Under the pieces are notes generated by a model. It was not told the DNA's origin and did not search any database. It saw only the letters and a list, made by a program, of their open reading frames with translations. A stretch of DNA of 64,000 nucleotides from assembly GCF_004342445.1 (NCBI RefSeq), contig NZ_SLWW01000011.1, positions 62,001 through 126,000 on the forward strand. Reading direction: 5' to 3'. The translations under genes and the position numbers were made by a program. Position 1 is the stretch's first letter, and every line of letters begins with the position of its first letter. The DNA comes from Rhodovulum euryhalinum (GTDB taxonomy: Bacteria; Pseudomonadota; Alphaproteobacteria; Rhodobacterales; Rhodobacteraceae). Below, piece by piece: positions 20,073 to 45,068 of this stretch.

Positions 20073-20122
20073 TTGACACGGGGGCGGCCTGCCGCAAAAT
20101 AGGTAAAGCGGTACCATAATGC
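20073..20122 (+). promoter_or_regulatory. Ligase-thiolase promoter with operator copy 2
   Basis: TTGACA (20073-20078) is followed after 17 bases by AAAATA (20096-20101), a weak -10. The operator copy AAAGCGGTACCATAATGC (20105-20122) lies directly after it, and its CATAAT could also serve as a -10. Within it GGTA (20102-20105)-N6-TACC (20112-20115) is a perfect dyad. The start of the ligase gene is about 100 bases further on. Which -10 is used cannot be decided from sequence. Confidence 0.6.
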
Positions 20123-20218
20123 ATGCCAGCGGAACGAACCGGCGCGCTCCTCTCGGGGGCGAAGATGGACCGGGCGTCCCGGAAAGCGCAGCCAGCGAGG
20201 CCGCGAAAGGGAGGACGG

Positions 20219-21817
20219 ATGAGCTTTCTGAACCTGGAGGATCGCGCGGCCGCCGCATGGCCCATAGCTCCTGATGGCGCATTGGCGTTTCCGCATGGTT
20301 TCAACGTGGCGCGCGTGTTCATCGACCGCCACCTGGCCGAGGGCCGGGCGGCAAAGATCGCCGTCCGGACCGCGCAGGGCGACACCAGCTATGCCGAGCT
20401 GGTGGCGGGCGTGAACCGGGCCGCCAATCTTCTGACCTGCCTTGGGATCGCGCAGGGCGAACGGCTGCTGATGATCGTCAAGGACTCGGTCGCGTTTCTT
20501 CAGCTGTTCTGGGGGGCGATCAAGGCGGGTGTCGTTCCGGTGCCGCTGAACACGATGCTGAGGGCCAAGGACTATGCCTTCATGATTGCCGACTCGGGCT
20601 GTGCGGCGCTGGTCTATTCGCCCGAGTTCGCCACCGAGGTCGAACCGGGGCTGGCAGGGGCCGCGCATCGACCCGGCGTCGTCATGCGGGCCGAGGGCGC
20701 GGAGGACGGTTTCGCCGCCCGTCTGACCGGGCAGTCCGACCGGTTCGAGGCGATACCGGCGTCGGCCGAGGACGATTGTTTCTGGCTCTATTCGTCGGGG
20801 TCCACCGGAAATCCCAAGGGCGCGGTCCATCGCCACCGCGACATGGTCGTGACCTCGGAATTCTACGGGGTGCGGACGCTTGGGGCCCGCGAGGATGACG
20901 TGTTCTTCTCGGCGGCAAAGCTGTTCTTCGCCTACGGTCTGGGCAACGGCATGACCTTTCCACTTTGGGTCGGGGGCACGTCGGTGCTTCTGGATGCGAG
21001 GCCGACGCCGCAAAGCACCTTTGCCATGGTCGAGCGGTTTCGGCCGACGCTCTATTTTGGTGTTCCGACGCTCTACGCGGCCCAGATCCACGCGCTGGAC
21101 GAGGTGCGGCCGGATTTCTCGTCTGTGCGTCTTTGCGTTTCGGCGGGCGAAGCCCTGCCGGCAGAGACCTTGCGGCGCTGGAAGGATCGTACCGGTCTGG
21201 ACATCCTTGATGGCATCGGCTCGACGGAACTGCTGCACATCTTCATCTCGAACCGCCCGGACGACATTCGCCCGGGCACCAGCGGCCGCATGGTCGAAGG
21301 CTATGATGGCGCGGTCTTCGACGACGAAGGCAATCGCCTGCCCCCGGGGGAATCGGGGCGGCTGATGATCCGCGGCCTGTCGGCGGCGCGGTGCTATTGG
21401 AACAACCCGGAAAGGACCGCCAGCACCATGCTGGGCGAGTGGCTGAACACCGGCGACACCTATATCTGCGACGCGGACGGATACTTCACGTATTGCGGCC
21501 GGTCCGACGACATGCTGAAGGTCGGCGGCATCTGGTGTTCGCCCTTCGAGATCGAGGCAGCGCTGATCGAGCACCCGGACGTGCTGGAGGCCGCGGTCGT
21601 CGGCAATCCCGACGCCGAGGGCCTGATCAAGCCCGAAGCCTATGTGGTGCTGGCAGATGGCGTTCGGGGAACCTCGTCACTGCAGCACACGCTTGCGCAG
21701 CACTGCAAGGCGCGGCTTGCGCCCTACAAGTTTCCGCGCCGGTTCCACTTCGTCGACGACCTGCCCAAAACCGCCACCGGAAAGATCCAGCGGTTCCGCC
21801 TGCGGACGCAGGTCTAG
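20219..21817 (+). CDS. badA: Benzoate-CoA ligase family protein (AMP-forming)
   Basis: A 532-residue acyl-adenylate enzyme starting MSFLNLEDRAAAAWPIAPDG. The P-loop-like motif YSSGSTGNPKG is at 191-201 and the C-terminal catalytic lysine lies in P516-KTAT-G521-K522. Length and the FWGAIKAGVVPVPLNTML segment match benzoate/hydroxybenzoate-CoA ligases (BadA, BclA). It would convert benzoate, ATP and CoA to benzoyl-CoA, the substrate of the reductase encoded downstream. P-X4-G-K is the acetylation motif described for BadA, HbaA and AliA in R. palustris; a Pat-type acyltransferase gene lies 1.2 kb away. Substrate (benzoate or a substituted benzoate) is not settled by sequence. The thiolase gene follows after 3 bases. 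Confidence 0.88.
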   Translation: MSFLNLEDRAAAAWPIAPDGALAFPHGFNVARVFIDRHLAEGRAAKIAVRTAQGDTSYAELVAGVNRAANLLTCLGIAQGERLLMIVKDSVAFLQLFWGAIKAGVVPVPLNTMLRAKDYAFMIADSGCAALVYSPEFATEVEPGLAGAAHRPGVVMRAEGAEDGFAARLTGQSDRFEAIPASAEDDCFWLYSSGSTGNPKGAVHRHRDMVVTSEFYGVRTLGAREDDVFFSAAKLFFAYGLGNGMTFPLWVGGTSVLLDARPTPQSTFAMVERFRPTLYFGVPTLYAAQIHALDEVRPDFSSVRLCVSAGEALPAETLRRWKDRTGLDILDGIGSTELLHIFISNRPDDIRPGTSGRMVEGYDGAVFDDEGNRLPPGESGRLMIRGLSAARCYWNNPERTASTMLGEWLNTGDTYICDADGYFTYCGRSDDMLKVGGIWCSPFEIEAALIEHPDVLEAAVVGNPDAEGLIKPEAYVVLADGVRGTSSLQHTLAQHCKARLAPYKFPRRFHFVDDLPKTATGKIQRFRLRTQV

Positions 21818-21820
21818 ACC

Positions 21821-23017: not shown

Positions 23018-23023
23018 ACCCGC

Positions 23024-25678: not shown

Positions 25679-25731
25679 CGTTCCTCCTTGTTCACCGGAC
25701 CGGGATTGGCCGCGCCCGGACCCGTGGCGGG

Positions 25732-25760
25732 ACTATGGCGCAGGATTGGGCGCTTGACAA
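25732..25760 (-). promoter_or_regulatory. pat promoter, overlapping the had promoter
   Basis: On the minus strand TTGTCA (25760-25755), 17 bases, then CATAGT (25737-25732). Its -35 overlaps the TTGACA of the divergent had promoter, so the two promoters are back to back around operator copy 1. The pat ATG lies 54 bases downstream of the -10. Confidence 0.5.
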
Positions 25761-25784
25761 ACAGGTAAATAGGTACTACTATGC
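25754..25784 (+). promoter_or_regulatory. had-oah-dch-bcr-fix promoter with operator copy 1
   Basis: A near-consensus sigma-70 promoter: TTGACA (25754-25759), 17-base spacer, TACTAT (25777-25782). The spacer and -10 are filled by operator copy AAATAGGTACTACTATGC (25767-25784). The dyad version is GGTA (25764-25767)-N6-TACT. A bound repressor would block RNA polymerase directly. It is placed 65 bases before the had start. Confidence 0.75.
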
Positions 25785-25846
25785 GTAAATACAGAGGGCC
25801 CATCGCCACCGCTGGCGCTTGGCCAATTACGCGAGGGGGAGGAGCC

Positions 25847-26914
25847 ATGCTGAAAGCGCCATACCGGTGGACCATGACGGCTGCGGGGGATCCGTTGTCC
25901 CGCCAGCCGTTGCAGTTGGATGCGCCCGCCCCCGGCCAGGTGGTCGTCGAGATCGCCGGGTGCGGCGTCTGCCACACCGACCTCGGATATTACTATGACG
26001 GCGTGCGCACCAACCGTCCCCTGCCGCTGACGCTGGGCCATGAAATCTCGGGCCGCGTGGTCGAGGTAGGTGCGGGCGCCGACGTCTGGCTCGGCCGCGC
26101 GGTGATCGTGCCTGCGGTGATGCCCTGTGGCGAATGTGATGCCTGCAAACGCGGCAAGGGCACGATCTGCCCGAACCAGGCGATGCCCGGCAACGACATC
26201 GAGGGCGGCTTTGCCTCGCATATCGTTGTGCCGGCCCGCGGGCTTTGCCCCGTGGATGAGGAAAGGCTGGCCAAGGCGGGCCTGACGCTGGCCGATGTCT
26301 CGGTGGTGGCCGATGCGGTGACCACGCCCTATCAGGCGGTGGTTCAGGCCGGTGTCGAGCCCGGCAGCCTGTGCATCGTCATCGGCACTGGCGGGGTGGG
26401 CGGCTATTGCGTGCAGATCGCCGCGGCGTTTGGCGGAACCGTTGTCGCCATCGATGTGGACCCCGCCAAGCTGGAGGCGATCGCCCGCCACGGCGCCTCG
26501 GCCACGTTCAACGCCCGCGACCACGACGCCCGCGCGCTGAAAAAGGCGATCCTGGCCTTTGCGGCCGAGAAGGGCCTGCCGACGCGGGAATGGACCATCT
26601 TCGAATGCTCGGGTTCGGCGGCGGGGCAGACAACGGCGTGGAACCTGCTGGTCCATGGCGCGACGCTGGCCGTCGTGGGCTTTACCATGGACAAGCCCGA
26701 CATCCGGCTGTCGAATCTGATGGCCTTCCACGCCCGAGCGCTGGGCAACTGGGGCTGCCCGCCCGAGCTTTACCCCGGCGCGCTGGATCTGGTGCTGGAC
26801 GGCAGGATCGAGCTTGGCGCCTTTGTCGAGCAGCATCCGCTGGACGAGATCAACCAGGTCTTCGCCGCCGCCCATGACCACAAGCTGACGCGCCGCGCGA
26901 TCCTCGTACCCTGA
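25847..26914 (+). CDS. had: 6-hydroxycyclohex-1-ene-1-carbonyl-CoA dehydrogenase
   Basis: A 355-residue zinc-type alcohol dehydrogenase starting at ATG 25847 behind GGGGGAGGAG. A longer frame starting inside the promoter was rejected. Catalytic zinc ligands C42, H65 and E66 and structural ligands C94, C97, C100 and C108 ([15 protein letters not shown]) are all present. The Rossmann motif is [11 protein letters not shown]. Had oxidises the 6-hydroxy ring CoA ester to the 6-oxo form with NAD+. Its place as first gene of an operon with Oah, Dch and BCR identifies it; the same gene set is known from Thauera and Azoarcus. The next gene starts 32 bases later. Confidence 0.93.
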
Positions 26915-26946
26915 ACCCCATTCCGACAGCCAGAGAGGAAGACAGC

Positions 26947-28086
26947 ATGTCTGCCCATCCCGCCCCCGCCCTTTCCGAACCGGCCCGCGACCTGAAGGAT
27001 CACAACATCGTTCCCGAAACGGTGGTTCCCGGCATCCTGTATGAAAAGCGCCCTGCCCGCACGCCGGACGGCGCCGTGGTGCCGGGTCTGTTCAACGCCT
27101 GGATCACGCTGGACAACCCGGCGCAGTTCAACTCGTACACGACAGAGATGGTGAAGGGCACGATCTTGGCCTTTCGCGCCGCCTCGAACGCACGCGACGT
27201 GGTGGCGGTGGTGTTCACCGGCGCGGGCGACAAGGCCTTCTGCACCGGCGGCAACACGAAGGAATACGCCGAGTACTACGCGGGCAACCCGCAGGAGTAT
27301 CGGCAATACATGCGGCTTTTCAACGATATGGTGTCCGCCATCCTGGGCTGCGACAAGCCGGTGATCTGCCGGGTGAACGGCATGCGCATCGGCGGCGGGC
27401 AGGAAATCGGCATGGCCTGCGATTTCTCGGTGGCGCAGGATCTGGCGCGATTCGGGCAGGCGGGGCCCAAGCACGGCTCGGCCCCCATCGGCGGCGCGAC
27501 CGACTTTCTGCCGGTGATGCTGGGCTGCGAGATGGCGATGGTCTCGGGCTCGCTGTGCGAACCGTGGTCGGCGCACAAGGCGTACCGTCTGGGCATGATC
27601 ACCGACATCGTGCCCGCGCTGAAACTGGACGGGCGGTTCGTGCCGAACCCCACCGTGGTCACCGACCGCTGGCTGGACGAGTTCGGCAAGATCGTCCACG
27701 GCGAGCCGCGCACCGGCGAAGAGGCTGCCGCGGGCCGCGAGGCGCTGAAGCGCGGCACGGTGGACCTTTCGCTGCTGGATGCCAGGGTCGAGGAGTTGTG
27801 CGCGAAGATCCTGCTGACCTTCCCCGACTGCTTTACCAAGACCATCGAGGAACTGCGCAAGCCCAAGATCGAAGCCTGGAACGCCAACAAGGAAAACAGC
27901 CGGGCGTGGCTGGCGCTGAACATGATGACCGAGGCGCGGGCGGGTTTCCGTGCCTTCAACGAGGGCTCCAGGGACGACCGCGAGATCGACTTTGTCGGCT
28001 TGCGCCAGGCGCTGGCCGCGGGCACGCCCTGGACCGATGACCTGACCGAAAGCCTGATGCCGAAAGCGCGCGGGGCGGCGAAATGA
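26947..28086 (+). CDS. oah: 6-oxocyclohex-1-ene-1-carbonyl-CoA hydrolase (ring opening)
   Basis: A 379-residue crotonase-superfamily enzyme starting MSAHPAPALSEPARDLKDHN. Residues such as AFCTGGNTKEYAEYYAGNPQ and CRVNGMRIGGGQEIGMACDF form the crotonase oxyanion hole. The long C-terminal part (FNEGSRDDREIDFVGLRQAL) is characteristic of Oah/BzdY. The enzyme adds two water molecules to the 6-oxo ring ester and opens the ring to 3-hydroxypimeloyl-CoA. Length fits the 375-380 residues of the family. The stop overlaps the dch start (ATGA), so the two are translationally coupled. Confidence 0.94.
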   Translation: MSAHPAPALSEPARDLKDHNIVPETVVPGILYEKRPARTPDGAVVPGLFNAWITLDNPAQFNSYTTEMVKGTILAFRAASNARDVVAVVFTGAGDKAFCTGGNTKEYAEYYAGNPQEYRQYMRLFNDMVSAILGCDKPVICRVNGMRIGGGQEIGMACDFSVAQDLARFGQAGPKHGSAPIGGATDFLPVMLGCEMAMVSGSLCEPWSAHKAYRLGMITDIVPALKLDGRFVPNPTVVTDRWLDEFGKIVHGEPRTGEEAAAGREALKRGTVDLSLLDARVEELCAKILLTFPDCFTKTIEELRKPKIEAWNANKENSRAWLALNMMTEARAGFRAFNEGSRDDREIDFVGLRQALAAGTPWTDDLTESLMPKARGAAK

Positions 28087-28853
28087 CCGCGAAGCCCCTG
28101 AAGGTCTGGCATGACCGGGACGGGCGCCTGCTGCGGCTGCGGCTGGCGCGCCCCAAGGCCAACATCGTCGATGCGCCGATGATTGCGGCCATCGACGCGG
28201 CGCTGGCCGAACACCTGGATGACCCGCGCCTGCTGGGCGTGCTGATCGACGCCGAGGGGCCGCATTTCAGTTTCGGCGCCAGCGTCGAGGAACACCTGCC
28301 CGGCCAGTACGAGGCGATGCTGAAGGGCTTTCACGCCCTCATCCTGCGGATCGTCGCCGCGCCGGTGCCTGTGCTGGTCGCGGTGCGCGGCCAGTGCCTG
28401 GGCGGCGGGATGGAGGTTGCCATTGCCGGAAACCTGATCTTCGCCGACCCCGACGCCCGCTTTGGCCAGCCGGAAATCGTGCTGGGGGTGTTCGCGCCGC
28501 CCGCCTCGGTCATCCTGCCCGAACGGATTGCGCGCTGCGCGGCCGAGGGGATGCTGTTCACTGGGCAATCCATCTCGGGCGCCGAGGCGCACCGGCTGGG
28601 CCTTGTCCATACCGTGACCGAGGACCCCGAGCGCGCCGCGCTGGACTGGTTCGACACCGGCATCGCCCCGCACAGCCCGTCGTCGCTGCGGCTGGCGGTG
28701 CGCGCGGCGCGGGGCGACTACGTTTGCCGTGTCCGCGACCGGCTGGCCCAGGCCGAAGACCTGTACCTGACCCACCTGATGCAGACCCCGGACGCCGTGG
28801 AGGGCCTGACCGCCTTTCTGGAAAAGCGCCCGGCCCAATGGGAGGCCCGCTGA
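28083..28853 (+). CDS. dch: Cyclohexa-1,5-diene-1-carbonyl-CoA hydratase
   Basis: A 256-residue crotonase-fold hydratase, MTAKPLKVWHDRDGRLLRLR at the N-terminus. It has FSFGASVEEHLPGQYEAMLK, the segment that follows the first oxyanion-hole residue in Dch/BadK-like enzymes, and AVRGQCLGGGMEVAIAGNLI. It hydrates the dienoyl-CoA made by benzoyl-CoA reductase to 6-hydroxycyclohex-1-ene-1-carbonyl-CoA, the substrate of Had. Its stop overlaps the bcrC start as TGATG. With Had and Oah it defines the Thauera-type route. The R. palustris-type cyclohexene route lacks this Had/Oah pair. Confidence 0.93.
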   Translation: MTAKPLKVWHDRDGRLLRLRLARPKANIVDAPMIAAIDAALAEHLDDPRLLGVLIDAEGPHFSFGASVEEHLPGQYEAMLKGFHALILRIVAAPVPVLVAVRGQCLGGGMEVAIAGNLIFADPDARFGQPEIVLGVFAPPASVILPERIARCAAEGMLFTGQSISGAEAHRLGLVHTVTEDPERAALDWFDTGIAPHSPSSLRLAVRAARGDYVCRVRDRLAQAEDLYLTHLMQTPDAVEGLTAFLEKRPAQWEAR

Positions 28854-30019
28854 TGCCCGCCACCACCGCAGAGACCGTCGCCCGCTGCCAGACGCTGTTC
28901 GACGACCTGGATTTCACCGCCGCCCGCGCCTGGAAAGAGGCCGCACCGGGCCGCAAGGTGGTGGGCTTCCTGCCGGTCTATGCGCCGCTGGAACTGATCC
29001 ACGCCGCGGGCTGCCTGCCCTTGGGCATCTTCGGCGGCGGCGACCGGATGGAGGTGATCCACGGCGACGCCTTCTATCAAAGCTATATCTGCCGCATCCC
29101 GCGGTCCACCGTCGAACTGGGCGTGACCGGGCGGCTGGATTTCGTGGACGGGATGATCTTTCCCTTCGTCTGCGACGTGATCCGCAACCTGTCAGGCATG
29201 TGGAAGATCATGTTCCCGCAGGTCTGGACCAAGTTCTTCGACACGCCGCAGAACTTCGACCCCGAGGTGGGCGGAGCCTATTACATCGAGGAACTGAAGG
29301 AACTGCGCGAGGGGCTGGAGCGGCTGACCGGCCGTCCGATCACTGACGCAGCCCTGCGCGCCTCGATCCTGCATTACAACGAGAACCGGCGGCTGGTCCG
29401 GGCAGTCTATGACTTCCGCGCCAACGCGCCGTGGAAGGCGCCGGCCTCGGAGGTCTATTTGCTGATGCGGGCCGGGCTGATGATGCCGGTCGAGGACCAT
29501 AACGGCATGCTCGCCGACTACCTTGACGCCGCCGAGGCCGAGGATCGGCCGCGCCGGGACAACGTGCGGATCGCGATCTACGGCTCGTTCTGCGAACAGC
29601 CCCCCCTGAACCTGATCAAGTCGGTCGAGATGGCCGGCTGCTACGTGGTCGAGGACGATTACGCGCTGGTGAACCGCTTCCTGACCGAGGACGTGCCGGT
29701 CGATGGCGACCCGATCGAGGCGCTGGCCACGGCCTACCTGACGAAGTCGGTCGAGACCTCGTGCAAATACGTGCCCAGGGAAGAGGACAAGGGCCGGTTC
29801 CACATCGCCCAGATCCGCAAGGCGCGGGCCGAGGGGGTGATCTACGCAAGCCCGTCATTCTGCGATCCCGCGCTGCTGGATCGTCCGATGATCGCGCGGC
29901 GCCTGACCGAGGCGGGGATCCCCCACATCTCGTTCAAGTACGCCGAGAATTCCGGCCAGATGCAGCCCATCCGGGAACAGGCCGGCACCTTTGCCGATTC
30001 CATCAAGCTCTGGAGCTAG
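28853..30019 (+). CDS. bcrC: Benzoyl-CoA reductase subunit C
   Basis: A 388-residue subunit of the ATP-dependent class I benzoyl-CoA reductase, of the 2-hydroxyglutaryl-CoA dehydratase D family. Cysteines 54, 80 and 107 (HAAGCLPLGIFGGGD, SYICRIPRSTVE, FPFVCDVIRNLSGMW) are the set expected to hold a [4Fe-4S] cluster. With BcrB it forms the ring-reducing half of the enzyme. Start ATG 28853 overlaps the dch stop. The gene order C-B-A-D is that of Thauera. The oxygen-sensitive enzyme works in the cytoplasm and hydrolyses two ATP per two electrons transferred. Confidence 0.95.
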   Translation: MPATTAETVARCQTLFDDLDFTAARAWKEAAPGRKVVGFLPVYAPLELIHAAGCLPLGIFGGGDRMEVIHGDAFYQSYICRIPRSTVELGVTGRLDFVDGMIFPFVCDVIRNLSGMWKIMFPQVWTKFFDTPQNFDPEVGGAYYIEELKELREGLERLTGRPITDAALRASILHYNENRRLVRAVYDFRANAPWKAPASEVYLLMRAGLMMPVEDHNGMLADYLDAAEAEDRPRRDNVRIAIYGSFCEQPPLNLIKSVEMAGCYVVEDDYALVNRFLTEDVPVDGDPIEALATAYLTKSVETSCKYVPREEDKGRFHIAQIRKARAEGVIYASPSFCDPALLDRPMIARRLTEAGIPHISFKYAENSGQMQPIREQAGTFADSIKLWS

Positions 30020-30022
30020 GCC

Positions 30023-31306: not shown

Positions 31307-31318
31307 GGGAGACCATAC

Positions 31319-32611: not shown

Positions 32612-32623
32612 GGGAGGACCCCC

Positions 32624-33466: not shown

Positions 33467-33533
33467 CACGGCCTTGGCGGCGCGCCGGGGCGCGGCGCCC
33501 TTTCCCGTCTCCGAGCTTTGACGAGGTCCCACC

Positions 33534-34403: not shown

Positions 34404-34415
34404 GGAGATCGTGCC

Positions 34416-35507: not shown

Positions 35508-35520
35508 GGAGGACCTACCG

Positions 35521-37139: not shown

Positions 37140-37147
37140 CGGGGAGA

Positions 37148-37182
37148 ACCGAAGCTCCGGGCATCGAGCCCGGAGCTTCGGT
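37148..37182 (+). terminator. Perfect 15-bp hairpin after fixX (terminator-like)
   Basis: A 15-base arm (37148-37162) and its exact complement (37168-37182) are separated by the 5-base loop ATCGA, starting 8 bases after the fixX stop. The stem is perfect and GC rich. No T run follows, so it may work as a weak intrinsic terminator, a Rho-linked end or a 3' stabiliser. It also separates fixX from the convergent GNAT gene. Confidence 0.7.
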
Positions 37183-37215
37183 GTCGGAGCCGCCCGGGGC
37201 GGCCCTCCGGCCCGG

Positions 37216-37722
37216 TCATAGCGGACGGCAGAAGCTCAGGCGTTGCGAGGGCGTGAACCCGGCCGTCTCGAAGAAGGCCATCAGGCCGTGGGCGTTCCAG
37301 TCGACGCGGGTGTGCAGCGTTTCGACATTGAGCGAGGCGAGGTTCGCCAGAAGCTGGCGCAGCAGCGCCGCGGCCACGCCCCGGCCCTGGAAGGCGGGCT
37401 CGACCCCGATCGTGTCCAGCACGGCCGAGGGCGCGGTGCGGCCGTACTCGCCGTAATCGACCCGCGCCATCACGAAACCGGCGAACTCGCCCTCGATCTC
37501 GGCCACGAGCGAAACGCGAACCCCGCTTTCGCCCAGCATCTCGGTCAGCTTGGCCTCGTAGTACCGGGTGCGGGGCTCGCCGCTTCCGTTCAGCTTGCGG
37601 TCAATCGCGACGACCGCGGGCAAGTCGGTCTCGAGCATCGAGCGAACAGGCAAAGGGTCGCGGCTGAACGCTTCGGCGGAATCGCTCGACGGATCGCTGA
37701 AGTCCTTTTCGCAGGTGTTCAT
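37216..37722 (-). CDS. GNAT family N-acetyltransferase (island copy 1)
   Basis: A 168-residue single-domain GNAT. The acetyl-CoA P-loop is in PAFQGRGVAAALLRQ, and the motif FETAGFTPSQRLSFCRPL ends the protein. It is visibly paralogous to the next gene (shared AGFVMARVDYGEYGRTA-type segment, similar ends), as after a tandem duplication. It is 9 bases downstream of that gene and probably co-transcribed from operator copy 4. The substrate is unknown. Context suggests acetylation of a pathway enzyme or small molecule in benzoate metabolism; this is inference. Confidence 0.85.
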   Translation of the reverse strand: MNTCEKDFSDPSSDSAEAFSRDPLPVRSMLETDLPAVVAIDRKLNGSGEPRTRYYEAKLTEMLGESGVRVSLVAEIEGEFAGFVMARVDYGEYGRTAPSAVLDTIGVEPAFQGRGVAAALLRQLLANLASLNVETLHTRVDWNAHGLMAFFETAGFTPSQRLSFCRPL

Positions 37723-37731
37723 GGACCTTCC

Positions 37732-38184
37732 TCAGTTGGCAACAGGGCGGTGCAGGACAAGGTGCGGGGCAAGGGCAAAGCCCGACGCAGCGAAGAACCG
37801 GACCATCTCGCGGTCGCTCCAGTCCGCCTCCGAGCGGATCTCGGTCACGCCCTGGGCGCGCAGGTCGGCCTCGAGCGCCGCCATGAGCGCCCGGCCGATG
37901 CCGCTGCCGCGCTGGGCGGGGTCGGTGGCGATTGCATCGATGACCGCGGCGCGCGCGGTGCCGCCGAATTCCCCCTCTTGCAGATGGGCGGAGACAAAGC
38001 CCGCCAGGGCGCCGCCGCGCTCTGCGACAAGCCAGGCAAACCGGCCGGCATTGGTCGCAAGCCTTGCATGGCGTTTTTCGAAGAAACCGCGGCGGGAACG
38101 GCCGGTCAGTTGGCGGTCAAGCGCGATGGCCGCCTCGATATCGGCGGCGACGACGGGCCGGACCGTGATGGACGCATCGGACAA
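37732..38184 (-). CDS. GNAT family N-acetyltransferase (island copy 2)
   Basis: A 150-residue GNAT starting MSDASITVRPVVAADIEAAI. The P-loop QRGSGIGRALMAAL is complete. Residues DWSDREMVRFFAASGFALAP form the usual C-terminal part. It is the first gene after the minus-strand promoter at operator copy 4, which it shares with the divergent SDR gene, so it appears to be part of the same regulon as the benzoyl-CoA operon. It may act on proteins (RimI-like) or on a metabolite; the sequence does not decide this. Confidence 0.85.
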   Translation of the reverse strand: MSDASITVRPVVAADIEAAIALDRQLTGRSRRGFFEKRHARLATNAGRFAWLVAERGGALAGFVSAHLQEGEFGGTARAAVIDAIATDPAQRGSGIGRALMAALEADLRAQGVTEIRSEADWSDREMVRFFAASGFALAPHLVLHRPVAN

Positions 38185-38202
38185 TTCTCACCCCCTGACG
38201 GC

Positions 38203-38250
38203 TTGTTTTCGCTAAATGGGTACGTTAATACCTATTTTGAGCGGCGTCAA
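38203..38250. promoter_or_regulatory. Divergent GNAT / SDR promoters around operator copy 4
   Basis: Plus strand: TTGTTT (38203-38208), 17 bases, TAATAC (38226-38231), toward the SDR gene. Minus strand: TTGACG (38250-38245), 17 bases, TAACGT (38227-38222), toward the GNAT pair. Operator copy AAATGGGTACGTTAATAC (38214-38231) overlaps both -10 boxes and contains the perfect dyad GGTA (38219-38222)-N6-TACC (38229-38232). A repressor here would shut both directions. Confidence 0.65.
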
Positions 38251-38267
38251 GCTTTCGAGGGGCACAG

Positions 38268-38984
38268 ATGGCAGCCACAGCGGGATGGGACTGGGCCGGG
38301 CGGCGGGCTATCGTGACCGGCGGCGGGCGCGGAATCGGACGGGCCATTGCCGAGGGGCTGGTGGCAGGCGGGGCCGAGGTTCACGTCTTCGACCCCGCCG
38401 GAGCAGAGGGACCGGAGGGCGCCAGCATGCACGCGGTCGACGTGACACAGCCGGCCTCGGTGGCGCAGGCGGTCGGCGGGCTTGGGCCTGTCGAGCTTCT
38501 GGTGAACAATGCCGGGATCACCCGGGACCGTTCCATCCTCAGGATGACGGACGACGAGTGGCGGCAGGTGATCGACGTGAACCTGTCCGGCGCCTTCCAC
38601 ATGATCCGCGCGGTGGCGCCCGGAATGACCGGAGCCGGAGTCGGCCGGATCGTGAACCTCGTCTCGATCAACGGGCTCAGGGGCAAGTTCGGGCAGGCCA
38701 ACTATGCCGCGTCCAAGGGTGGCCTCGTGGCCCTGACCAAGACCGCGGCGCGGGAATTCGGGCGCAAGGGCGTGACGGTGAACGCGGTCGCGCCCGGCAT
38801 GGTGCTGACCGAGATGACGATGGCCCTGGCCCCCGAACTGCGGCAGCGGGCGCTGGACGAAAGCCTGCTGGGCCGCCTGCCGGGGGTGGAGGACGTGGCG
38901 GCGGCGGTGCTGTTCCTGCTGTCGGACCGGGCGGCCTTCATCACCGGGCAGGTGTTGCAGGTCGATGCGGGGCAGTATGTCTGA
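38268..38984 (+). CDS. SDR-family dehydrogenase, candidate 3-hydroxypimeloyl-CoA dehydrogenase
   Basis: A 238-residue short-chain dehydrogenase with TGGGRGIG (17-24), NNAG (80-83), and catalytic S133, Y146 and K150 in the normal spacing. It resembles FabG/PhaB-type 3-oxoacyl reductases. Start ATG 38268 follows GAGGGG. No other beta-hydroxyacyl-CoA dehydrogenase gene is in the island, and the product of Oah is 3-hydroxypimeloyl-CoA, so this enzyme is the best candidate to oxidise it to 3-oxopimeloyl-CoA before the thiolase. A general FabG-like role cannot be excluded. Confidence 0.85.
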   Translation: MAATAGWDWAGRRAIVTGGGRGIGRAIAEGLVAGGAEVHVFDPAGAEGPEGASMHAVDVTQPASVAQAVGGLGPVELLVNNAGITRDRSILRMTDDEWRQVIDVNLSGAFHMIRAVAPGMTGAGVGRIVNLVSINGLRGKFGQANYAASKGGLVALTKTAAREFGRKGVTVNAVAPGMVLTEMTMALAPELRQRALDESLLGRLPGVEDVAAAVLFLLSDRAAFITGQVLQVDAGQYV

Positions 38985-38989
38985 TCGGG

Positions 38990-39445
38990 CTAGAGCCCGA
39001 CCGCGGCTCTTCGGACGGCATCTTCGGCGGGTGCGTCCTGCGTCCGGCGGCTGATCTTGAGCATCGTGTCCACCGTGATCGACGAAAGCGTGGCGCGCGT
39101 GGCCTCCTCGATCTCGCCCAGCACCCGCCGCAGGGCCTGCCCGTTGCGGGTGTGGTCGCCCGGCTCTGGCGCGCCCTGTCCGATCGGCCAGATCGGTTCG
39201 AAGAGTTGCACGATGTCCAGCAGGTTCAGCCGCTTGGCGTTGCCGCAAAACCGGTACCCGCCGCCCACGCCGCGCGAGGCCTCGACCAGTCCGGCGCGGC
39301 CCAGCGTGCGCAGGACCTTGGCAAGGTGGTTGGTGGACAGGTCGTACTTGTCCGCGATCTCGGCGGCCGAAAGCTGGCGGTCTGGCCGGGAGGCCAGTTC
39401 GAGAATGGCGAAAAGCGCGTGGCGGGTGGCAAGCTGGAGCTTCAT
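38990..39445 (-). CDS. Rrf2-family regulator, BadM-like candidate repressor
   Basis: A 151-residue Rrf2 protein starting MKLQLATRHALFAILELASR. The helix-turn-helix and wing are AAEIADKYDLSTNHLAKVLR and EASRGVGGGYRFCGNAKRL. Unlike IscR or NsrR, it has only one cysteine (C67), so it lacks the three-Cys set that holds an Fe-S cluster. It is coupled to a GNAT gene by ATGA and convergent with the SDR gene. BadM of R. palustris is an Rrf2 repressor of the benzoyl-CoA reductase genes. By family and location this protein is the best candidate to bind the recurrent island operator; its signal (for example benzoyl-CoA) is unknown. Confidence 0.85.
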   Translation of the reverse strand: MKLQLATRHALFAILELASRPDRQLSAAEIADKYDLSTNHLAKVLRTLGRAGLVEASRGVGGGYRFCGNAKRLNLLDIVQLFEPIWPIGQGAPEPGDHTRNGQALRRVLGEIEEATRATLSSITVDTMLKISRRTQDAPAEDAVRRAAVGL

Positions 39446-39912
39446 TCGTCGAGATCCTTCTCCAGTTCCACGAAGGGGCCGGCCATCATCCCATGCGCCC
39501 GGAAGAACGACATGATAAGCTGCGCCTCGCGGGCGATCATGGTGCGCACCTTGGTGACCCCCGCCTGCCGGAAGCCCGCGCAGATGGCGTCGAACAGTTG
39601 TGTGCCCACCGCCCGCAGCCGCCAGTCGGGTTCGACCCCGATGGCGAAGATCCAGCCGCAGGGGGCCGAGCCGAACTCCCACGCCCGGATCTCGCCCGCG
39701 ATGAAGCCAAGCCGCGTTCCCTGGCTGCGCGCGACCAGAAAGAAGCTGCGGTGCGGTTCGGTCCGGGCGCCGTCGAGCAGCCGCCGCCAGTAGTCGGGCT
39801 TGGGCATGCCGGTATTCTGGGTATCGAGGGCCACGATCCAGGAAAGGTCGCTTTCCTCGACCGGGCCGATGGCGACCTCGGCGGTGTCGGGTTGGGTCTT
39901 GCGCTCTGCCAT
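39442..39912 (-). CDS. GNAT family N-acetyltransferase (island copy 3), coupled to the Rrf2 gene
   Basis: A 156-residue GNAT-fold protein starting MAERKTQPDTAEVAIGPVEE. It shares the WEFGSAPCGWIFAIGVEPDW region layout with the other two island GNATs. Its acetyl-CoA loop (DWRLRAVGTQLFD) departs from the R/Q-X2-G-X-G/A pattern, with Ala at the first Gly, so activity may be altered. The stop overlaps the Rrf2 start as ATGA, which makes the two a regulatory-looking pair. It lies downstream of operator copy 5. It could be an acetyltransferase or a CoA-ester sensor acting with the regulator; both are speculation. Confidence 0.8.
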   Translation of the reverse strand: MAERKTQPDTAEVAIGPVEESDLSWIVALDTQNTGMPKPDYWRRLLDGARTEPHRSFFLVARSQGTRLGFIAGEIRAWEFGSAPCGWIFAIGVEPDWRLRAVGTQLFDAICAGFRQAGVTKVRTMIAREAQLIMSFFRAHGMMAGPFVELEKDLDE

Positions 39913-39964
39913 GTCCTGCACAAATTGCAGCGCGGTCAGGGCCGCGCCTTCTTGGAGTTGTCCT

Positions 39965-39993
39965 AAACTAGTACCGGTATGCGGAAATGGCAA
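39965..39993 (-). promoter_or_regulatory. GNAT-Rrf2 promoter with operator copy 5
   Basis: On the minus strand TTGCCA (39993-39988), 17 bases, TAGTTT (39970-39965), about 50 bases before the GNAT start. Read on the plus strand, AAACTAGTACCGGTATGC (39965-39982) matches operator copy 1 at 12 of 18 positions and contains the palindrome TACCGGTA (39972-39979). This is the most degenerate copy. If real, it would let the Rrf2 protein control its own gene. Confidence 0.5.
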
Positions 39994-40010
39994 CCGTACC
40001 CGCCGGAACG

Positions 40011-40703
40011 TCAGACCCCCAGCCAGCGGTGCTGCAGATCGGCATCGGCGCGAATCTCGGCCGGGCTGCCCGACCAGACGACACGGCCGCGGCTGACCAC
40101 CGCCACGTCGTCGGCCAGCGAGGTGGCGAAGCCGAAATTCTGCTCGACCAGGACCATCGACATCCCGGCCGAGCGCAACTCGGCCAGCTTGTCGTGGATC
40201 AGCTTGACGATGATCGGGGCCAGACCTTCGGTTGGTTCGTCGAGGATCAGCAGGCGCGGGTTCATCATCAGCGCCCGGGCGATGGCCAGCATCTGCTGTT
40301 CGCCGCCCGAAAGCTGTGTGCCGCCGTTTTCCAGCCGCTCTCCCAGCCGCGGGAACAGGTCGATCACCCGCTCCAGTGTCCACGTGCCCTTGCGCGCCAC
40401 GCGGGCGGCCAGCATCAGGTTCTCGTGCACGCTGAGCGAGGGGAAGATGTCGCGCGTTTCGGGCACGTAGCCGATGCCGAACCGGGCGATGTGATAGGGC
40501 CGCCGGTCAAGTGGCGCGCCGGCAAAGCGGATCGCGCCACGGCGCAGCGGCAGCAGGCCCATGACCGTCTTGAGCGTGGTGGTCTTGCCCGCGCCGTTGC
40601 GCCCCAGGATCGCCAGCACCCGGCCGGGCTGCGCGGTCAGGGTCATGCCGTGCAGCACCTGCGTTTCGCCATAGCCGGAATCGACGTCAGAGAGTTCAAG
40701 CAT
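40011..40703 (-). CDS. Branched-chain/aromatic acid ABC transporter ATPase, LivF-like
   Basis: A 230-residue ABC ATPase with Walker A GRNGAGKTT (residues about 34-42), signature LSGGEQQM and Walker B LLILDEPTEGLAP. The LAPIIV segment after Walker B is typical of LivF. Its start overlaps the end of the LivG-like gene by 8 bases. Transporters of this class next to benzoate pathways (for example in R. palustris) import aromatic acids. Uptake of benzoate or a related acid is inferred from genomic context. Confidence 0.9.
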   Translation of the reverse strand: MLELSDVDSGYGETQVLHGMTLTAQPGRVLAILGRNGAGKTTTLKTVMGLLPLRRGAIRFAGAPLDRRPYHIARFGIGYVPETRDIFPSLSVHENLMLAARVARKGTWTLERVIDLFPRLGERLENGGTQLSGGEQQMLAIARALMMNPRLLILDEPTEGLAPIIVKLIHDKLAELRSAGMSMVLVEQNFGFATSLADDVAVVSRGRVVWSGSPAEIRADADLQHRWLGV

Positions 40704-41439
40704 TCTCCCACGACCCCAGATAGATGTCCTTCAACATCGCCGAGTTCCGCGCCTCTTCGGGTGCGCCGTCAAAGACCACCTCGCCATAGTTCAGAACGGT
40801 GATCCGGTCGGCCACGTCAAAGGCCAGATCCATGTCGTGCTCGACGATCAGCAGCGTCAACTCGCGCGGCAGCGAGGCCAGCATGTGGTGAAAGCCATGC
40901 GCCATTTCCGGGCCGATGCCCGAGGTGGGTTCGTCCAGCAGGATCACCCGCGGGCGGGTGGCCAGCGCCAGCCCCACCTCCAACTGGCGGCGCACCCCGT
41001 AGGAAACGGCCGAGACCGTCGCATCCAGATGCGGGCTCAGGTGCAGCCGTGCGGCCACCTCGCGCACCGTCTCGCGCACCTCGGGCATGGCAAGGCAGTC
41101 GCGCAGGATCGACCGCGCGGCACCGGTCGCCACCGCGGCGGCAAGGCCGAGGTTCTCGGCCACGCTCAGCGCGTCGAACAGCGTGTTCTTCTGATAGCTG
41201 CGGGCCAGCCCCTGACGCGCACGTTCTGCCACGGGGGCGGCGGTGATGTCGCGCCCGCCCAGCAGAATCGCGCCCGCATCGGGCGCAAGCTCACCCGCCA
41301 GCAGGTTGAAAAGCGTCGTCTTGCCCGCGCCGTTGGGGCCAAGGATCACGCGGCGCTCGCCCGGCTCCAGCCGCAGCGAGACGTCGCGGGTGACGTGGAT
41401 CGGGCCGAAGCGCTTGTCGAGATGGCGCACCTCAAGCAT
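40696..41439 (-). CDS. Branched-chain/aromatic acid ABC transporter ATPase, LivG-like
   Basis: A 247-residue ABC ATPase starting MLEVRHLDKRFGPIHVTRDV at ATG 41439, 8 bases inside the permease gene; a longer frame was rejected for lack of a ribosome site. Walker A GPNGAGKTT, signature SYGVRRQLEVGLAL (a Ser-Tyr-Gly form usual in LivG) and Walker B VILLDEPTSGIG are visible. It forms the heterodimeric motor with the LivF-like protein. Confidence 0.9.
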   Translation of the reverse strand: MLEVRHLDKRFGPIHVTRDVSLRLEPGERRVILGPNGAGKTTLFNLLAGELAPDAGAILLGGRDITAAPVAERARQGLARSYQKNTLFDALSVAENLGLAAAVATGAARSILRDCLAMPEVRETVREVAARLHLSPHLDATVSAVSYGVRRQLEVGLALATRPRVILLDEPTSGIGPEMAHGFHHMLASLPRELTLLIVEHDMDLAFDVADRITVLNYGEVVFDGAPEEARNSAMLKDIYLGSWENA

Positions 41440-42427
41440 CGTGAGGCTCTCCCCGAGGGGCGGCGGCCCTTGCGGCGCGGCGGGCGGACATCCGGGAAAG
41501 CCGGTCTTCGACAAAGCCGAAGATGCCGTTCGCGCGGCTCATCACGACCGCAATCAGGATCAGGCCCACGACGAGGTGCCAGTAGGGGGTGATCGCGCTG
41601 ACCTCGTGGCGCAACACCACGAAGGCCACCGCCCCGACGATGGGCCCGACAAAGGTGCCAAGCCCGCCAAGGATCACCACGACCAGGGCCTCGCCCGACA
41701 CTGTCCAGGCCAGAAGCCCAGGCGAGATGTACATCACATGCTGGGCGGCCAGCACGCCCGCAACCCCCGCGATCATCCCCGACAGGCCGAAGAGATGCGC
41801 CTTGGTCCGCCACACGGTCAGACCCAGCGCGCGCATCCGCCGTTCGTTGTCGCGGATGCCCACCAGCGCGCGCCCCAGCCCCGACCGCAGGATCTGCGCG
41901 GCTGCCAGCACCACCAGCACCAGCGCGGCCAGGCAATAGAGTGCAAAGGCGCGGGACGTGTTCAGGTCGATCCCCAGCGCCGAAAGGTCCGGCCGCGCCA
42001 GTCCCGCCAACCCGTCGTCGCCGCCGAAGATCGGGCTTTCGAACACGAAGGAATAGCCCATCTGCCCGAAGGCCAGCGTGACCATGATGAAATAGATCCC
42101 TTGGCTGCCGGCGCAGATCGCGCCGACGATCCAGCCCACCGCGCCGGTGAACAGCACGGCGAACAGCATCGCCGCCCAGACCGGCAGGCCAAGCGACAGG
42201 CCCGCCATGGCGAAGGCATAGGCCCCCGCCCCCATCAGCGCGCCATGGCACAGCGAGACCATGCCACCGAACCCCGCCACCATGTCCAGCGCGATCACCA
42301 GAATGGCGAGGATCAGGATCTCGGTCAGCATTTCGAGCCCGGCAAAGCCGCTGGCGAAGGCCGCGCCCGTGGCCGCCGCCAGAAGCAGCGCCAGAGTTCC
42401 GAGGCGGAGGGGCGAGAGGCGGAACAT
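41432..42427 (-). CDS. ABC transporter permease, LivM-like
   Basis: A 331-residue inner-membrane permease with about nine hydrophobic segments, such as ILILAILVIALDMVAGFGGM near the N-terminus and FGLSGMIAGVAGVLAAQHVM. VGIRDNERRMRALGLTVWRT is the cytoplasmic loop that contacts the ATPases in LivM proteins. It lies 3 bases after the LivH-like gene and overlaps the LivG-like gene. It translocates substrate together with LivH. Confidence 0.92.
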   Translation of the reverse strand: MFRLSPLRLGTLALLLAAATGAAFASGFAGLEMLTEILILAILVIALDMVAGFGGMVSLCHGALMGAGAYAFAMAGLSLGLPVWAAMLFAVLFTGAVGWIVGAICAGSQGIYFIMVTLAFGQMGYSFVFESPIFGGDDGLAGLARPDLSALGIDLNTSRAFALYCLAALVLVVLAAAQILRSGLGRALVGIRDNERRMRALGLTVWRTKAHLFGLSGMIAGVAGVLAAQHVMYISPGLLAWTVSGEALVVVILGGLGTFVGPIVGAVAFVVLRHEVSAITPYWHLVVGLILIAVVMSRANGIFGFVEDRLSRMSARRAARAAAPRGEPHDA

Positions 42428-42430
42428 GCC

Positions 42431-43294
42431 CTATCCCCGCGCCGGAAACATGCCCGCGGGCCTGAGGATCAGCACAGCGGCCAGAAGCGCATAGATCAGC
42501 ACCGAGGCCAGCCCCGGCAGCAGGACCGCGCCAAAGGTCTGCACGAACCCGAAGATCAGCGAGCCCGCCATCGCGCCCCACAGGCTGCCGAGGCCACCGA
42601 TCACCACCACGATCAGCGTGGGGATCAGGATTTGCAGCCCCATGTCGGGCGTCACCGACAGGATCGGTGCCGCGACCGCTCCGGCCAGCCCGGCCAGCCC
42701 GCATCCGACGCAGAACACCGCAAGGAACAGCCGCTCGACATTGATGCCCAGGCAGGCGGCCATCTTGTCGTTGTCGACGCCCGCCCGGATCATCGCACCG
42801 ATCTGGGTGCGTGCCAGCACCAGCGCCAGCGCGGCGAAGATCGCCGCCCCCAGCGCAATGATGAACAATCGGTAGACCGGATAGGTCACGCCGCCGATCT
42901 CGATCCGGCCCGCCAGGGCTTGCGGCACCTCGATACCCAGGGCGATGTCGCCCCAGACGATCCGCGTCAGGTCGAGCAGTACGAAGATCAGCCCGAAGGT
43001 GACGAGAACCTGCGCCATCGGCCCGCTCTGGCGCATCCGGCGGATCAGCAGCCAGTAGAGCAGCAGCCCCAGTTCCGCCACGACCAGCGGCGCCGTGATC
43101 AGCCCTGCCCAGTACCCCACCGTTCCCGCGACCGTCGCCGCCACATAGGCGCCCACGGCGTAAAGCGCGCCATGGGCCAGGTTGACGAAATGCATCAGGC
43201 CGAAGATCACCGTCAGCCCGACCGAGAGCAGGAACAAGAGCATCGACAGTTGCAACGCGTTCAGCGTCTGGAACAGCCAGAATCCGAAATCCAT
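42431..43294 (-). CDS. ABC transporter permease, LivH-like
   Basis: A 287-residue permease with eight or so hydrophobic segments. LSVGLTVIFGLMHFVNLAHG near the N-terminus is the hallmark of LivH. GAMIRAGVDNDKMAACLGIN is the coupling loop. It starts MDFGFWLFQTLNALQLSMLL and is preceded by GGAGG. It is paired with LivM. The 107 bases upstream, between it and the substrate-binding gene, contain inverted repeats that may reduce permease expression relative to the binding protein. Confidence 0.92.
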   Translation of the reverse strand: MDFGFWLFQTLNALQLSMLLFLLSVGLTVIFGLMHFVNLAHGALYAVGAYVAATVAGTVGYWAGLITAPLVVAELGLLLYWLLIRRMRQSGPMAQVLVTFGLIFVLLDLTRIVWGDIALGIEVPQALAGRIEIGGVTYPVYRLFIIALGAAIFAALALVLARTQIGAMIRAGVDNDKMAACLGINVERLFLAVFCVGCGLAGLAGAVAAPILSVTPDMGLQILIPTLIVVVIGGLGSLWGAMAGSLIFGFVQTFGAVLLPGLASVLIYALLAAVLILRPAGMFPARG

Positions 43295-43326
43295 CCGGTC
43301 CTCCGTCGCGGGCGGGCGGGGGCCGC

Positions 43327-43340
43327 CCCCCGATCGGGGG
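43327..43340. repeat. Perfect 14-base palindrome in the transporter operon
   Basis: CCCCCGATCGGGGG, a perfect palindrome between the substrate-binding gene and the LivH-like gene. A second GC-rich inverted stretch follows at about 43360-43395. No T tract is present. Such structures after binding-protein genes often stabilise the upstream transcript or attenuate read-through; that role is inferred here. Confidence 0.5.
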
Positions 43341-43401
43341 ACGGATGCGCAGGCGAAGGGGCCGGCCCCGGCATGTGCGCCGCGGGGCCGGCCGGGTCGG
43401 T

Positions 43402-44577
43402 TCAGTTGGTCGTCGACAGGGTGCAGCCGTTGGCCGGATCGGCCTCGGCGGGCAGTTCCGCAACAACCTTCTGGGTCAGTCCGCCGTCGCCCGCCACGGT
43501 CTCGTAGACATAGATCGGCTGGACGATGTTGTTGGTCGCGGGGTCGATGGCCGTCGTTCCGCGCGGCCCGTCGAACGAGACCTGGGCAAGCGCCCTTGCA
43601 AGGCCTTCGCGGTCGGCCGCGCCTGTGGCGCTGGCCACCACCAGGGCGCGGGCCGCGTCATAGCCCTGTACCGCATATTCCGACGGCATCCGCCCGGTTT
43701 CGGCCTTGTACGCCGCGACGAAGGCGGCGTTGGCCGGGTTGTCGATGGTCGGCACGTAATGCAGCGCCGCGATCACGCCCTCGGCGGCCGGCCCCTCGGC
43801 CTCGACATAGAGTGGCGAGGTCAGGAAGCCCGCGCCGTACAGCGGCATCGCCGCCTTCAGCCCGAAGCTGTCGTATTGCTTGACGAACGAGATCGCCTCG
43901 CCCCCGGCATAAAAGGCATAGACGGCGTCCGCGCCGCTGGCCTTTGCCTTGGCCAGGTAGGGGCCGAAATCCTGGGTCTTCTGGAACGGCGTGTACTCCT
44001 GCCCGACCACGTCGCCACCGGCCGCGGCAAAGCCTTCGACGAAGCCGCCGATCATCTGCCGGCCCGCGGCATAATCGGGCGCGATGGTAAAGACCTTCTG
44101 CACCCCTTGCGCATGCAGCCAGTCTCCCATCGGCCGGTTCACCTGCCGGTTCGAGAACGACATCCGGGTGATGTAGGGGCTGCACTGCTCGCCGGTGGCC
44201 TCGTCGTTGCCGGCATTGGCCACGATCAGCGGCACGCCGCTGCCATGCACGAAGTCACGGATCGCCCCCAGAACGCCGGAACTGACCACCCCGGCGATCA
44301 CGTCCACCTGGTCGTCCAGAACCAGCTTGCGCGCCTTGGCCAGGCCCACGGGCGGCTTGACCTCGGTATCTTCGGTGACGATGGCGAAACTGGCCTGCGT
44401 TTCGGGCGCGAAGGTCTGCAACCCAAGCCGGAACCCCGCCTCGATGTCATTGCCGAGCGCGGCGTAGACACCGGAATAGGGCAGCAGAAGTCCCACCTTT
44501 ATCTCTTCGGCTGCGGCCTGCACCGCCAGGCCGCCTGCGCAGAGTCCGGCGAGGACCCCGATCAGCTTGTCTTTCAT
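43402..44577 (-). CDS. ABC transporter substrate-binding protein (aromatic acid type)
   Basis: A 391-residue periplasmic binding protein of the Leu/Ile/Val type. Residues 1 to about 23 are a Sec signal peptide (MKDKLIGVLAGLCAGGLAVQ, then AAA before EEIKVG). EIKVGLLLPYSGVYAALGND is the start of the mature fold. The start follows GGGAGG. It is the first gene of the transporter operon, under the promoter with operator copy 3. Relatives next to benzoate clusters bind aromatic acids; a benzoate-type ligand is inferred from regulation and location, not from visible contact residues. Confidence 0.88.
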   Translation of the reverse strand: MKDKLIGVLAGLCAGGLAVQAAAEEIKVGLLLPYSGVYAALGNDIEAGFRLGLQTFAPETQASFAIVTEDTEVKPPVGLAKARKLVLDDQVDVIAGVVSSGVLGAIRDFVHGSGVPLIVANAGNDEATGEQCSPYITRMSFSNRQVNRPMGDWLHAQGVQKVFTIAPDYAAGRQMIGGFVEGFAAAGGDVVGQEYTPFQKTQDFGPYLAKAKASGADAVYAFYAGGEAISFVKQYDSFGLKAAMPLYGAGFLTSPLYVEAEGPAAEGVIAALHYVPTIDNPANAAFVAAYKAETGRMPSEYAVQGYDAARALVVASATGAADREGLARALAQVSFDGPRGTTAIDPATNNIVQPIYVYETVAGDGGLTQKVVAELPAEADPANGCTLSTTN

Positions 44578-45068
44578 TGTTGTTCCTCCCTGGGTCGTTT
44601 TCTGGGGTGACGTCTTCCTTCTGCCCCGGGTTTCCGCACCGGACCGTCAGGGAAGGCGCCGTCCGAAGGTCTGTCTCTCTCGCGATGTTTCGGGGGCAGG
44701 GCATCGGTCCGTTCGCCGCGCGTCCTGTGCCCGCAGATTCGGACACCCGCGGCGCCTGATCCCCGAAGCCCAAGCCGGACCCGTGTCGAACAGTCAGTGG
44801 CGGTATTAATGTGGCATTAGAGTACCTATTTACTATTTGTCAAGATGCCGATATCTCCGGAGCCTTGGCTGGACACCCCCGGGCGACCTTTCGTCGCGGG
44901 GCGGCCTTGAGAAGTCGCACTGGGTTCAGAAGGGATCGACCGGAAGTCCGGCCCGATCCCCAGCGATGAAAGGGCGCGGCGGGGACGCTTCACATCGCGT
45001 GCAATCGTGATGTAACAAGGGTTTGCACGTTCATTTTACGCCGCGCAGCCTGTACTGGACCCGCCAGA
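44578..45068. other. 491-base divergent gap: transporter leader and helicase upstream region
   Basis: The minus-strand promoter of the transporter operon lies at 44814-44843, leaving a 5' leader of about 230 bases before the binding-protein start. I saw no conserved small ORF, tRNA or recognised riboswitch in it. Positions 44850-45068, before the GTG of the helicase fusion, are GC rich except for an AT-richer patch at 45005-45045 that could hold a promoter; no clear boxes were found. Confidence 0.5.
44814..44843 (-). promoter_or_regulatory. Transporter promoter with operator copy 3
   Basis: On the minus strand a perfect TTGACA (44843-44838) is followed after 17-18 bases by CTAATG/TAATGC (44820-44814). 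The spacer and -10 are filled by operator copy AAATAGGTACTCTAATGC (44831-44814), 15 of 18 identical to copy 1 in front of had. This ties uptake to the same control as the catabolic operon. Confidence 0.72.

Follow-up and report, generated by a model that had tools for sequence, protein, structure and literature searches.

The island and its five motif copies

We analysed a 64,000-nucleotide (nt) stretch of the Rhodovulum euryhalinum genome (contig NZ_SLWW01000011.1, positions 62,001 to 126,000; hereafter the window), which carries a benzoyl-CoA pathway island. The island includes a benzoate-CoA ligase operon, the dearomatising operon had-oah-dch-bcrCBAD, an SDR family reductase gene divergent from a tandem pair of GNAT acetyltransferase genes, a gene pair resembling badL and badM of Rhodopseudomonas palustris (badLM), and a liv-type transporter operon (Table 1). 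Each of these units is preceded by a copy of the same operator-like motif. With a probability of roughly 0.87, we read the five copies as operators of an autoregulated regulon, controlled by the BadM-type Rrf2 repressor that the island itself encodes. The sites, their genomic specificity, their conservation and their linkage to badLM are established by the analyses presented below.

The original prediction placed an 18-base-pair (bp) motif at five promoters, and the coordinates and strands of all five 18-mers proved correct. The copies at 25767 (had) and 44831-44814 (transporter) indeed agree at 15 of 18 positions, differing at three, and 100 shuffles produced no match of this kind. The copy at 38214, attributed to an SDR/GNAT promoter, is there as well and can be placed more precisely between the SDR gene and the divergent tandem GNAT pair. 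The core pattern TAWWNNNGTACNNNWWTRC matches the window five times but is absent from 100 shuffled windows. In the whole 3.79-Mb genome it occurs exactly five times, always at one of the five promoters, and the reversed control pattern does not occur at all. By this pattern, the motif is not equally common at random genomic sites, the outcome that the original prediction had named as speaking against it; TAWWNNNGTACNNNWWTRC is confined to the island. This pattern was written after inspection of the aligned sites and is their summary rather than an independent test; it fits 32 of 49 sites from outside Rhodovulum and 7 of 9 Rhodovulum sites.

To guard against circularity, we ran a de novo palindromic motif search by expectation-maximization (EM) on the 350 nt upstream of the badL-like gene at 18 loci outside Rhodovulum. 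The search converged on AAATAGGTACTATAGTACCTATTT, present at 14 of the 18 loci (it misses L036, L069, L073 and L076); four of the 18 loci are of the Thalassospira type and nearly identical, which makes the effective number smaller. When the resulting matrix was applied to the window, the seven best matches all fell at the five promoters. The scores were 30.3 bits for SDR, 29.7 for had, 27.5 for livJ (the transporter operon), 26.8 for ligase and 16.8 for badL, and the next place in the window, leaving aside alternative registers of these sites (up to 10.4 bits), reached 8.9 bits. A 6-Mb sequence simulated with an order-2 Markov model contained no place scoring as high as the top four promoters and one place as high as the badL copy. 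In 420 kb of other sequence from the same genome (21 stretches of 20 kb) the maximum was 20.0 bits, with four places of at least 15 bits and two of at least 16.8 bits. The SDR, had, livJ and ligase copies are far above background, and the badL copy is supported by an exact match to the core, by where it lies and by being conserved in R. strictum.

Two other ways of describing the motif were less useful. A covariance model of 11 sites from relatives produced matches, up to an E-value of 10, in only 2 of 16 Rhodovulum genomes, those with an orthologue of the regulator; a 24-mer is too short for such a model to be sensitive, and matrix scans and IUPAC patterns took its place. One loose IUPAC pattern, which allowed three mismatches, was dropped as unspecific (107 matches in the same genome, 74 for the control).

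Table 1. Predicted operators and genes of the island (positions within the window)
Feature	Position	Strand	Details
Predicted operator, benzoate-CoA ligase operon	20097..20128	+	AAATAGGT AAAGCGGT ACCATAAT GCATGCCA; upstream of operon
Benzoate-CoA ligase	20219..21817	+	TIGR02262 633 bits, cut-off 375
Predicted operator, had-oah-dch-bcrCBAD	25759..25790	+	AAACAGGT AAATAGGT ACTACTAT GCGTAAAT; two overlapping dyads 8 bp apart
had, oah, dch, bcrC, bcrB, bcrA, bcrD (benzoyl-CoA dearomatising operon)	25847..33466	+	7/7 above NCBIfam equivalog cut-offs
GNAT acetyltransferase, second of tandem pair	37219..37722	-	30% identical over 125 residues to badL-like protein
GNAT acetyltransferase, first of tandem pair, divergent from SDR	37735..38184	-	Pfam scan
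Predicted operator, SDR (+) and divergent tandem GNAT pair (-)	38206..38237	+	Between SDR and GNAT pair
SDR family reductase	38268..38984	+	Divergent from GNAT pair
badM-like Rrf2 regulator, proposed repressor	38990..39445	-	TIGR00738 97.4 bits, cut-off 73.3; Pfam Rrf2 1.5e-25
badL-like GNAT acetyltransferase, proposed inducer-making enzyme	39442..39912	-	Pfam GNAT 4.5e-9
Predicted weak operator, badL-badM	39957..39988	-	Core 39964-39982; predicted autoregulatory site
Branched-chain/urea-type ABC (ATP-binding cassette) transporter operon	40011..44577	-	Two subunits scanned, related models below cut-offs
Predicted operator, liv-type transporter operon	44808..44839	-	Two overlapping dyads; kept at R. 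strictum livJ

Architecture of the element and its overlap with promoters

Alignment of 58 sites, hand-picked from the matrix matches, yielded GTA-N5-GTAC-N5-TRC with A/T-rich arms, about 32 bp in total. The central G-T-A-C is conserved at 95-97%, and the AAAT/ATTT arms and a second dyad at -8 are conserved as well. This second, weaker dyad lies exactly 8 bp to one side at many of the sites, the side having been chosen by score. Among 34 oriented sites (5 of 39 were excluded as being of unknown direction) the second-dyad score was positive at -8 in 20 and at +8 in 12. Compared with flank shuffles, the mean scores correspond to z of 6.5 at -8 and 4.5 at +8, values that are inflated by the relatedness of the sites. 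We propose that the element consists of two overlapping 24-bp dyads made of three blocks (GTA, GTAC and TRC) 8 bp apart. The perfect dyad of the ligase copy falls on blocks 1 and 2 and that of the SDR copy on blocks 2 and 3 (best 24-bp dyad AAATGGGTA-N6-TACCTATTT, 38214-38237), while the had copy uses both. A single 32-bp palindrome about GTAC was considered too, and is not claimed: its centre pair statistics are close to the expectation from column composition.

The two perfect GGTA-N6-TACC dyads of the original prediction do exist, at 20102-20115 (the left dyad of the ligase copy, whose 18-mer spans 20105-20122) and at 38219-38232. Only 0.06 such exact dyads are expected in the window, and two were reached in 1 of 100 shuffles. 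Relative to the 18-mer, the two are shifted by 8 bp with respect to each other. Since the element appears to contain two overlapping dyads 8 bp apart, these two are out of register. Thus, the idea of a shared operator-like element stands, but not its extent, which is about 32 bp in three blocks instead of 18 bp.

According to the original prediction, all copies overlap a -10 element or its spacer. This is well supported for three promoters, ligase (TTGACA-N16-CAAAAT), had (TTGACA-N17-TACTAT, 25754-25782) and livJ (TTGACA-N16-TCTAAT), each combining TTGACA with a fair -10 in a way that none of 500 shuffles equalled. At had and livJ the hexamer directly 3' of GTAC is the -10, which the predicted operator covers; at ligase the -10 overlaps block 1. 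The match is moderate for badL (TTGCCA-N17-TAGTTT, overlapped by the predicted operator; 0.06 of shuffles) and for GNAT (0.12 of shuffles), and on the + strand upstream of SDR we detected no convincing promoter (0.45 of shuffles), so that the overlap is weak there. Sites of the FNR/AadR type were also looked for. The window contains no exact TTGAYNNNNRTCAA and seven places with one mismatch; one of these, 38237-38250, which overlaps the GNAT promoter's -35, was not accepted as a site.

Conservation in other genomes and neighbouring genes

The closest comparison is with R. strictum, in which the ligase (G008:C66:20282) and had sites are kept and the badL core is identical (G008:C11:137489). The four matches of TAWWNNNGTACNNNWWTRC there fall into three places, the upstream regions of badL, SDR and had; the ligase and livJ sites are detected by the EM matrix and missed by TAWWNNNGTACNNNWWTRC. 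The site upstream of SDR is also found in R. strictum, Blastochloris, Rhodoplanes and genome G404, and the had site has counterparts at had/bcr promoters in other genera. In the draft genome of R. strictum the island is split between two contigs, one with bcr, ligase and SDR genes (G008:C66) and the other with badLM and liv genes (G008:C11), and the element occurs on both. By contrast, the 14 other Rhodovulum genomes, which have only distant Rrf2 matches, contain three TAWWNNNGTACNNNWWTRC matches in total versus eight of the reversed control. This comparison of orthologue-bearing genomes with the 14 others favours the original proposal that a shared operator near the -10 is bound by the island Rrf2 protein.

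A profile built from 15 BadM orthologues identified the regulator in 22 of 385 alphaproteobacterial genomes (E <=1e-25) and in 7 of 398 genomes drawn from the phylum (E <=1e-30). The BadM-type regulator is therefore scattered, not universal. Where it occurs, a relative of badL adjoins badM in 39 of 40 locus rows (L033 and L040 are the same locus), the exception, L070, being at a contig end. A site of at least 15 bits was present within 1.5 kb of badM at 13 of 21 BadM-orthologue loci versus 2 of 26 Rrf2-paralogue loci; the 21 loci exclude the window, and one of them (G037) was a training locus that the motif search had missed. The neighbours of these badLM loci differ: bcr genes, boxC or, in the Thalassospira stretch examined, no bcr genes.

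In orthologue-bearing genomes the motif is found upstream of badLM, had/bcr, ligase, transporter or box genes. The had/bcr operons are the most consistent, with a site within 400 nt of all 13 promoters (11 outside Rhodovulum, 2 in Rhodovulum). This count uses a hand-made gene list without training promoters, and leaves out the bcrC promoters of L072, L074 and L075 (training region) as well as L041 (had promoter cut off). The respective counts are 7 of 8 for SDR or gnat2, 4 of 7 for ligase, 3 of 5 for livJ and 3 of 3 for boxC. In one family (f66, that of genome G102) the regulator occurs in 68 of 75 genomes and the element at all 29 loci examined. A bcrB match was found in none of the 75 genomes (E <=1e-100), a weak negative, as the set holds no positive control. 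In G102 the element lies between badL and boxC (BoxC equivalog 898.7 bits, cut-off 712.3). On an Agrobacterium plasmid a GNAT-Rrf2 pair is located beside a liv-type transporter and a benzoate-CoA ligase, and places of 17.0 and 16.4 bits (raw scores, without shuffle control) lie upstream of GNAT and the transporter.

Strong two-dyad sites also occur beside other genes, at L069 (252-283 and 2898-2929) and L037 (5377 and 14364); these genes are possibly further regulon members. The R. euryhalinum genome itself encodes a second Rrf2 regulator (G000:C25:4965-5390, locus L173), 35% identical to the first. Near it is AATAGGTATTTACAATACCTATT, in which the same half-site is spaced by N7 rather than N6, and which is present beside relatives in G004 and G005 too. 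A spacing code may separate these Rrf2 paralogues.

The badM-like protein of the window is 92% identical to its R. strictum counterpart, and HLAKV and RG.GGGY are invariant across the 15 aligned BadM orthologues. The stop codon of badL overlaps the start of badM; the badL start codon (39912) is our choice. The mechanically assigned starts of ligase (20123) and had (25781) fall in or beside the predicted operators, and the likely starts are 20219 and 25847. For ligase the start was moved from ATG 20123 to ATG 20219, which follows GGGAGGA; the TIGR02262 match begins at residue 60 of the longer open reading frame. The transporter operon probably serves aromatic acid uptake, its remaining subunits and substrate being read from sequence and context. 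The tandem GNAT pair (37219-38184, minus strand) shares the operator region of SDR, and its relatives adjoin bcr genes in several genera; this type of GNAT is also present in R. strictum, Blastochloris, Rhodoplanes and others. Divergent from had is a gene for a Pat-like acyl-CoA synthetase/GNAT fusion (23024-25678, minus strand), and the had operator lies upstream of both. In R. palustris, benzoate-CoA ligase is known to undergo Pat-type acetylation. Directly 3' of bcrD, EtfB-, EtfA- and FixC-like genes (33534-36831, plus strand) are possibly an electron-supply module for benzoyl-CoA reductase.

The predicted BadM-type regulon and known systems

BadM of R. palustris, an Rrf2 protein, represses badDEFGAB; BadL converts aminobenzoates by acetylation into acetamidobenzoates, which weaken BadM binding (PMC6191541). 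Binding of BadM to DNA was relieved in vitro by 10 mM 2-acetamidobenzoate, and deletion of badM in a badL mutant restored transcription (PMC6191541). The badL/badM gene pair was also noted in Magnetospirillum and Geobacter (PMC6191541). The R. euryhalinum island has the same gene pair arrangement, and we therefore read the five sites as operators of its BadM-like protein, whose gene is linked to sites at benzoyl-CoA reductase and ligase genes. By this analogy we infer binding by the island Rrf2 protein, repression and the nature of the ligand. In the BadM that has been studied, it is the acetamidobenzoates produced by BadL that bring relief (PMC6191541), so benzoyl-CoA, the signal considered in the original prediction, is unsupported.

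The predicted regulon would comprise the ligase operon, had-oah-dch-bcrCBAD, SDR with the divergent GNAT pair, the transporter operon and badL-badM. Without substrate, one or two BadM dimers would occupy each operator, closing the promoter; at had, livJ and ligase, where the operator covers or touches the -10, RNA polymerase would be excluded. When an aminobenzoate is present, the BadL-like GNAT would, as in R. palustris, produce an acetamidobenzoate that releases BadM, leading to joint expression of uptake, CoA activation, ring reduction and badLM. Speculatively, the GNAT pair under the SDR operator may add to the acetylated signal.

Could the motif belong to a different regulator, with the badLM linkage reflecting only shared cluster membership? 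The binder might then be a LysR-type protein encoded at ~18.6-19.5 kb or an unlinked factor. A LysR/GcvA-like gene does adjoin the island (PRK11139 211 bits, below the cut-off of 288), the Rrf2 paralogue in the same genome has a similar half-site with N7 spacing, and linkage alone is no proof of the binder's identity. We nevertheless regard this as quite unlikely: the motif recurs upstream of badLM despite differing neighbours, and an Rrf2 dimer would suit both the length of the dyad and the conserved DNA-binding region. Still less credible is a conserved promoter with no operator, that is, an extended -10 with a TTGACA -35. The -10-like hexamer after GTAC at had and livJ and the perfect TTGACA at three copies are what such a promoter would show. 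It would leave unexplained the conserved arms and -8 dyad, the restriction of the core pattern to the island in a genome that must hold many vegetative promoters, and the SDR copy, which is the best dyad yet has no good + strand promoter match. It is also conceivable, if unlikely, that the island Rrf2 protein activates, or both activates and represses depending on site position. Rrf2 proteins can activate, IscR being an example, and the placement of sites relative to promoter elements differs at ligase and SDR. However, at had and livJ the -10 lies within the site, and R. palustris BadM acts as a repressor, its deletion restoring transcription in a badL mutant (PMC6191541).

Several observations weigh against the BadM-type regulon itself. 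By the EM matrix alone the badL copy is at background level (two places of at least 16.8 bits per 420 kb), and the covariance model of relative sites reported one of the five window sites (E 0.17). Promoter overlap is uneven and weak at SDR, and the offset test is also high at +5 (z 3.9) and -9 (z 2.9). The name BadM rests on gene order and family. No site precedes 3 of 7 ligases, 2 of 5 livJ genes or 1 of 8 SDR/gnat2 genes, and 8 of the 21 loci have no strong site within 1.5 kb of badM; when four of these eight were examined over a wider region, all four had a site upstream of a bcr, had or oah operon.

Considering the broader picture, we tentatively suggest, at somewhat less than even odds, that badLM and the 32-bp three-block operator form a widespread aromatic-acid switch. 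Found in Alphaproteobacteria and some other Proteobacteria, it would serve both the anaerobic benzoyl-CoA reductase and the aerobic box pathways, with two dimers on dyads offset by 8 bp and extra GNATs widening or amplifying the inducer signal.

Like IscR, NsrR, RirA and CymR, the BadM-like protein belongs to the Rrf2 family. The operators and target genes of those regulators differ from the ones described here, and the Fe-S members (IscR, NsrR and RirA) hold their cluster by three cysteines. The window protein has one cysteine, and the 18 proteins compared, of which it is one, have one or two each. Because it has a single cysteine, the window protein should be unable to hold a three-cysteine Fe-S site.

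Another relevant system is BzdR/BoxR of Betaproteobacteria, for which the ligand is benzoyl-CoA. As in the island, palindromic promoter units are involved, and through them BzdR/BoxR repress both anaerobic and aerobic benzoyl-CoA pathways; unlike the island's Rrf2 protein, they combine XRE and shikimate-kinase-like domains and recognize TGCA repeats (PMC6449761, PMC6678401). The regulator linked to our sites is an Rrf2 protein and the motif core is GTAC, which does not correspond to BzdR/BoxR; no search was made for a BzdR-like gene elsewhere in the genome. In Thauera sp. MZ1T, a published study found that the had-oah-dch-bcrCBAD-type operon has no BzdR/BoxR site before it (PMC6449761). This same operon type carries predicted BadM-type sites in R. 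euryhalinum, which makes the BadM-like protein a candidate regulator for such operons.

The predicted regulon is of a known kind, and the three-block operator and its occurrence at box genes are the new parts, undescribed in the literature found. Our literature search recognised no paper describing the operator consensus; the R. palustris operator may be in print. Similar to R. palustris BadM/BadL (PMC6191541), the island has an Rrf2 regulator gene adjoining a GNAT gene within a benzoyl-CoA pathway island, and control is predicted for both the ring-reducing reductase and the ligase. In contrast to R. palustris, there are separate sites at had-oah-dch-bcrCBAD, the ligase, the liv-type transporter, SDR/GNAT and badLM. 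In this way, the R. palustris repressor would be extended to a predicted regulon with several promoters. The precise operator can be recognised in other genomes and could be used as a sensor part, and the repressor's aminobenzoate-acetylation signal would be tied to aerobic box genes as well.

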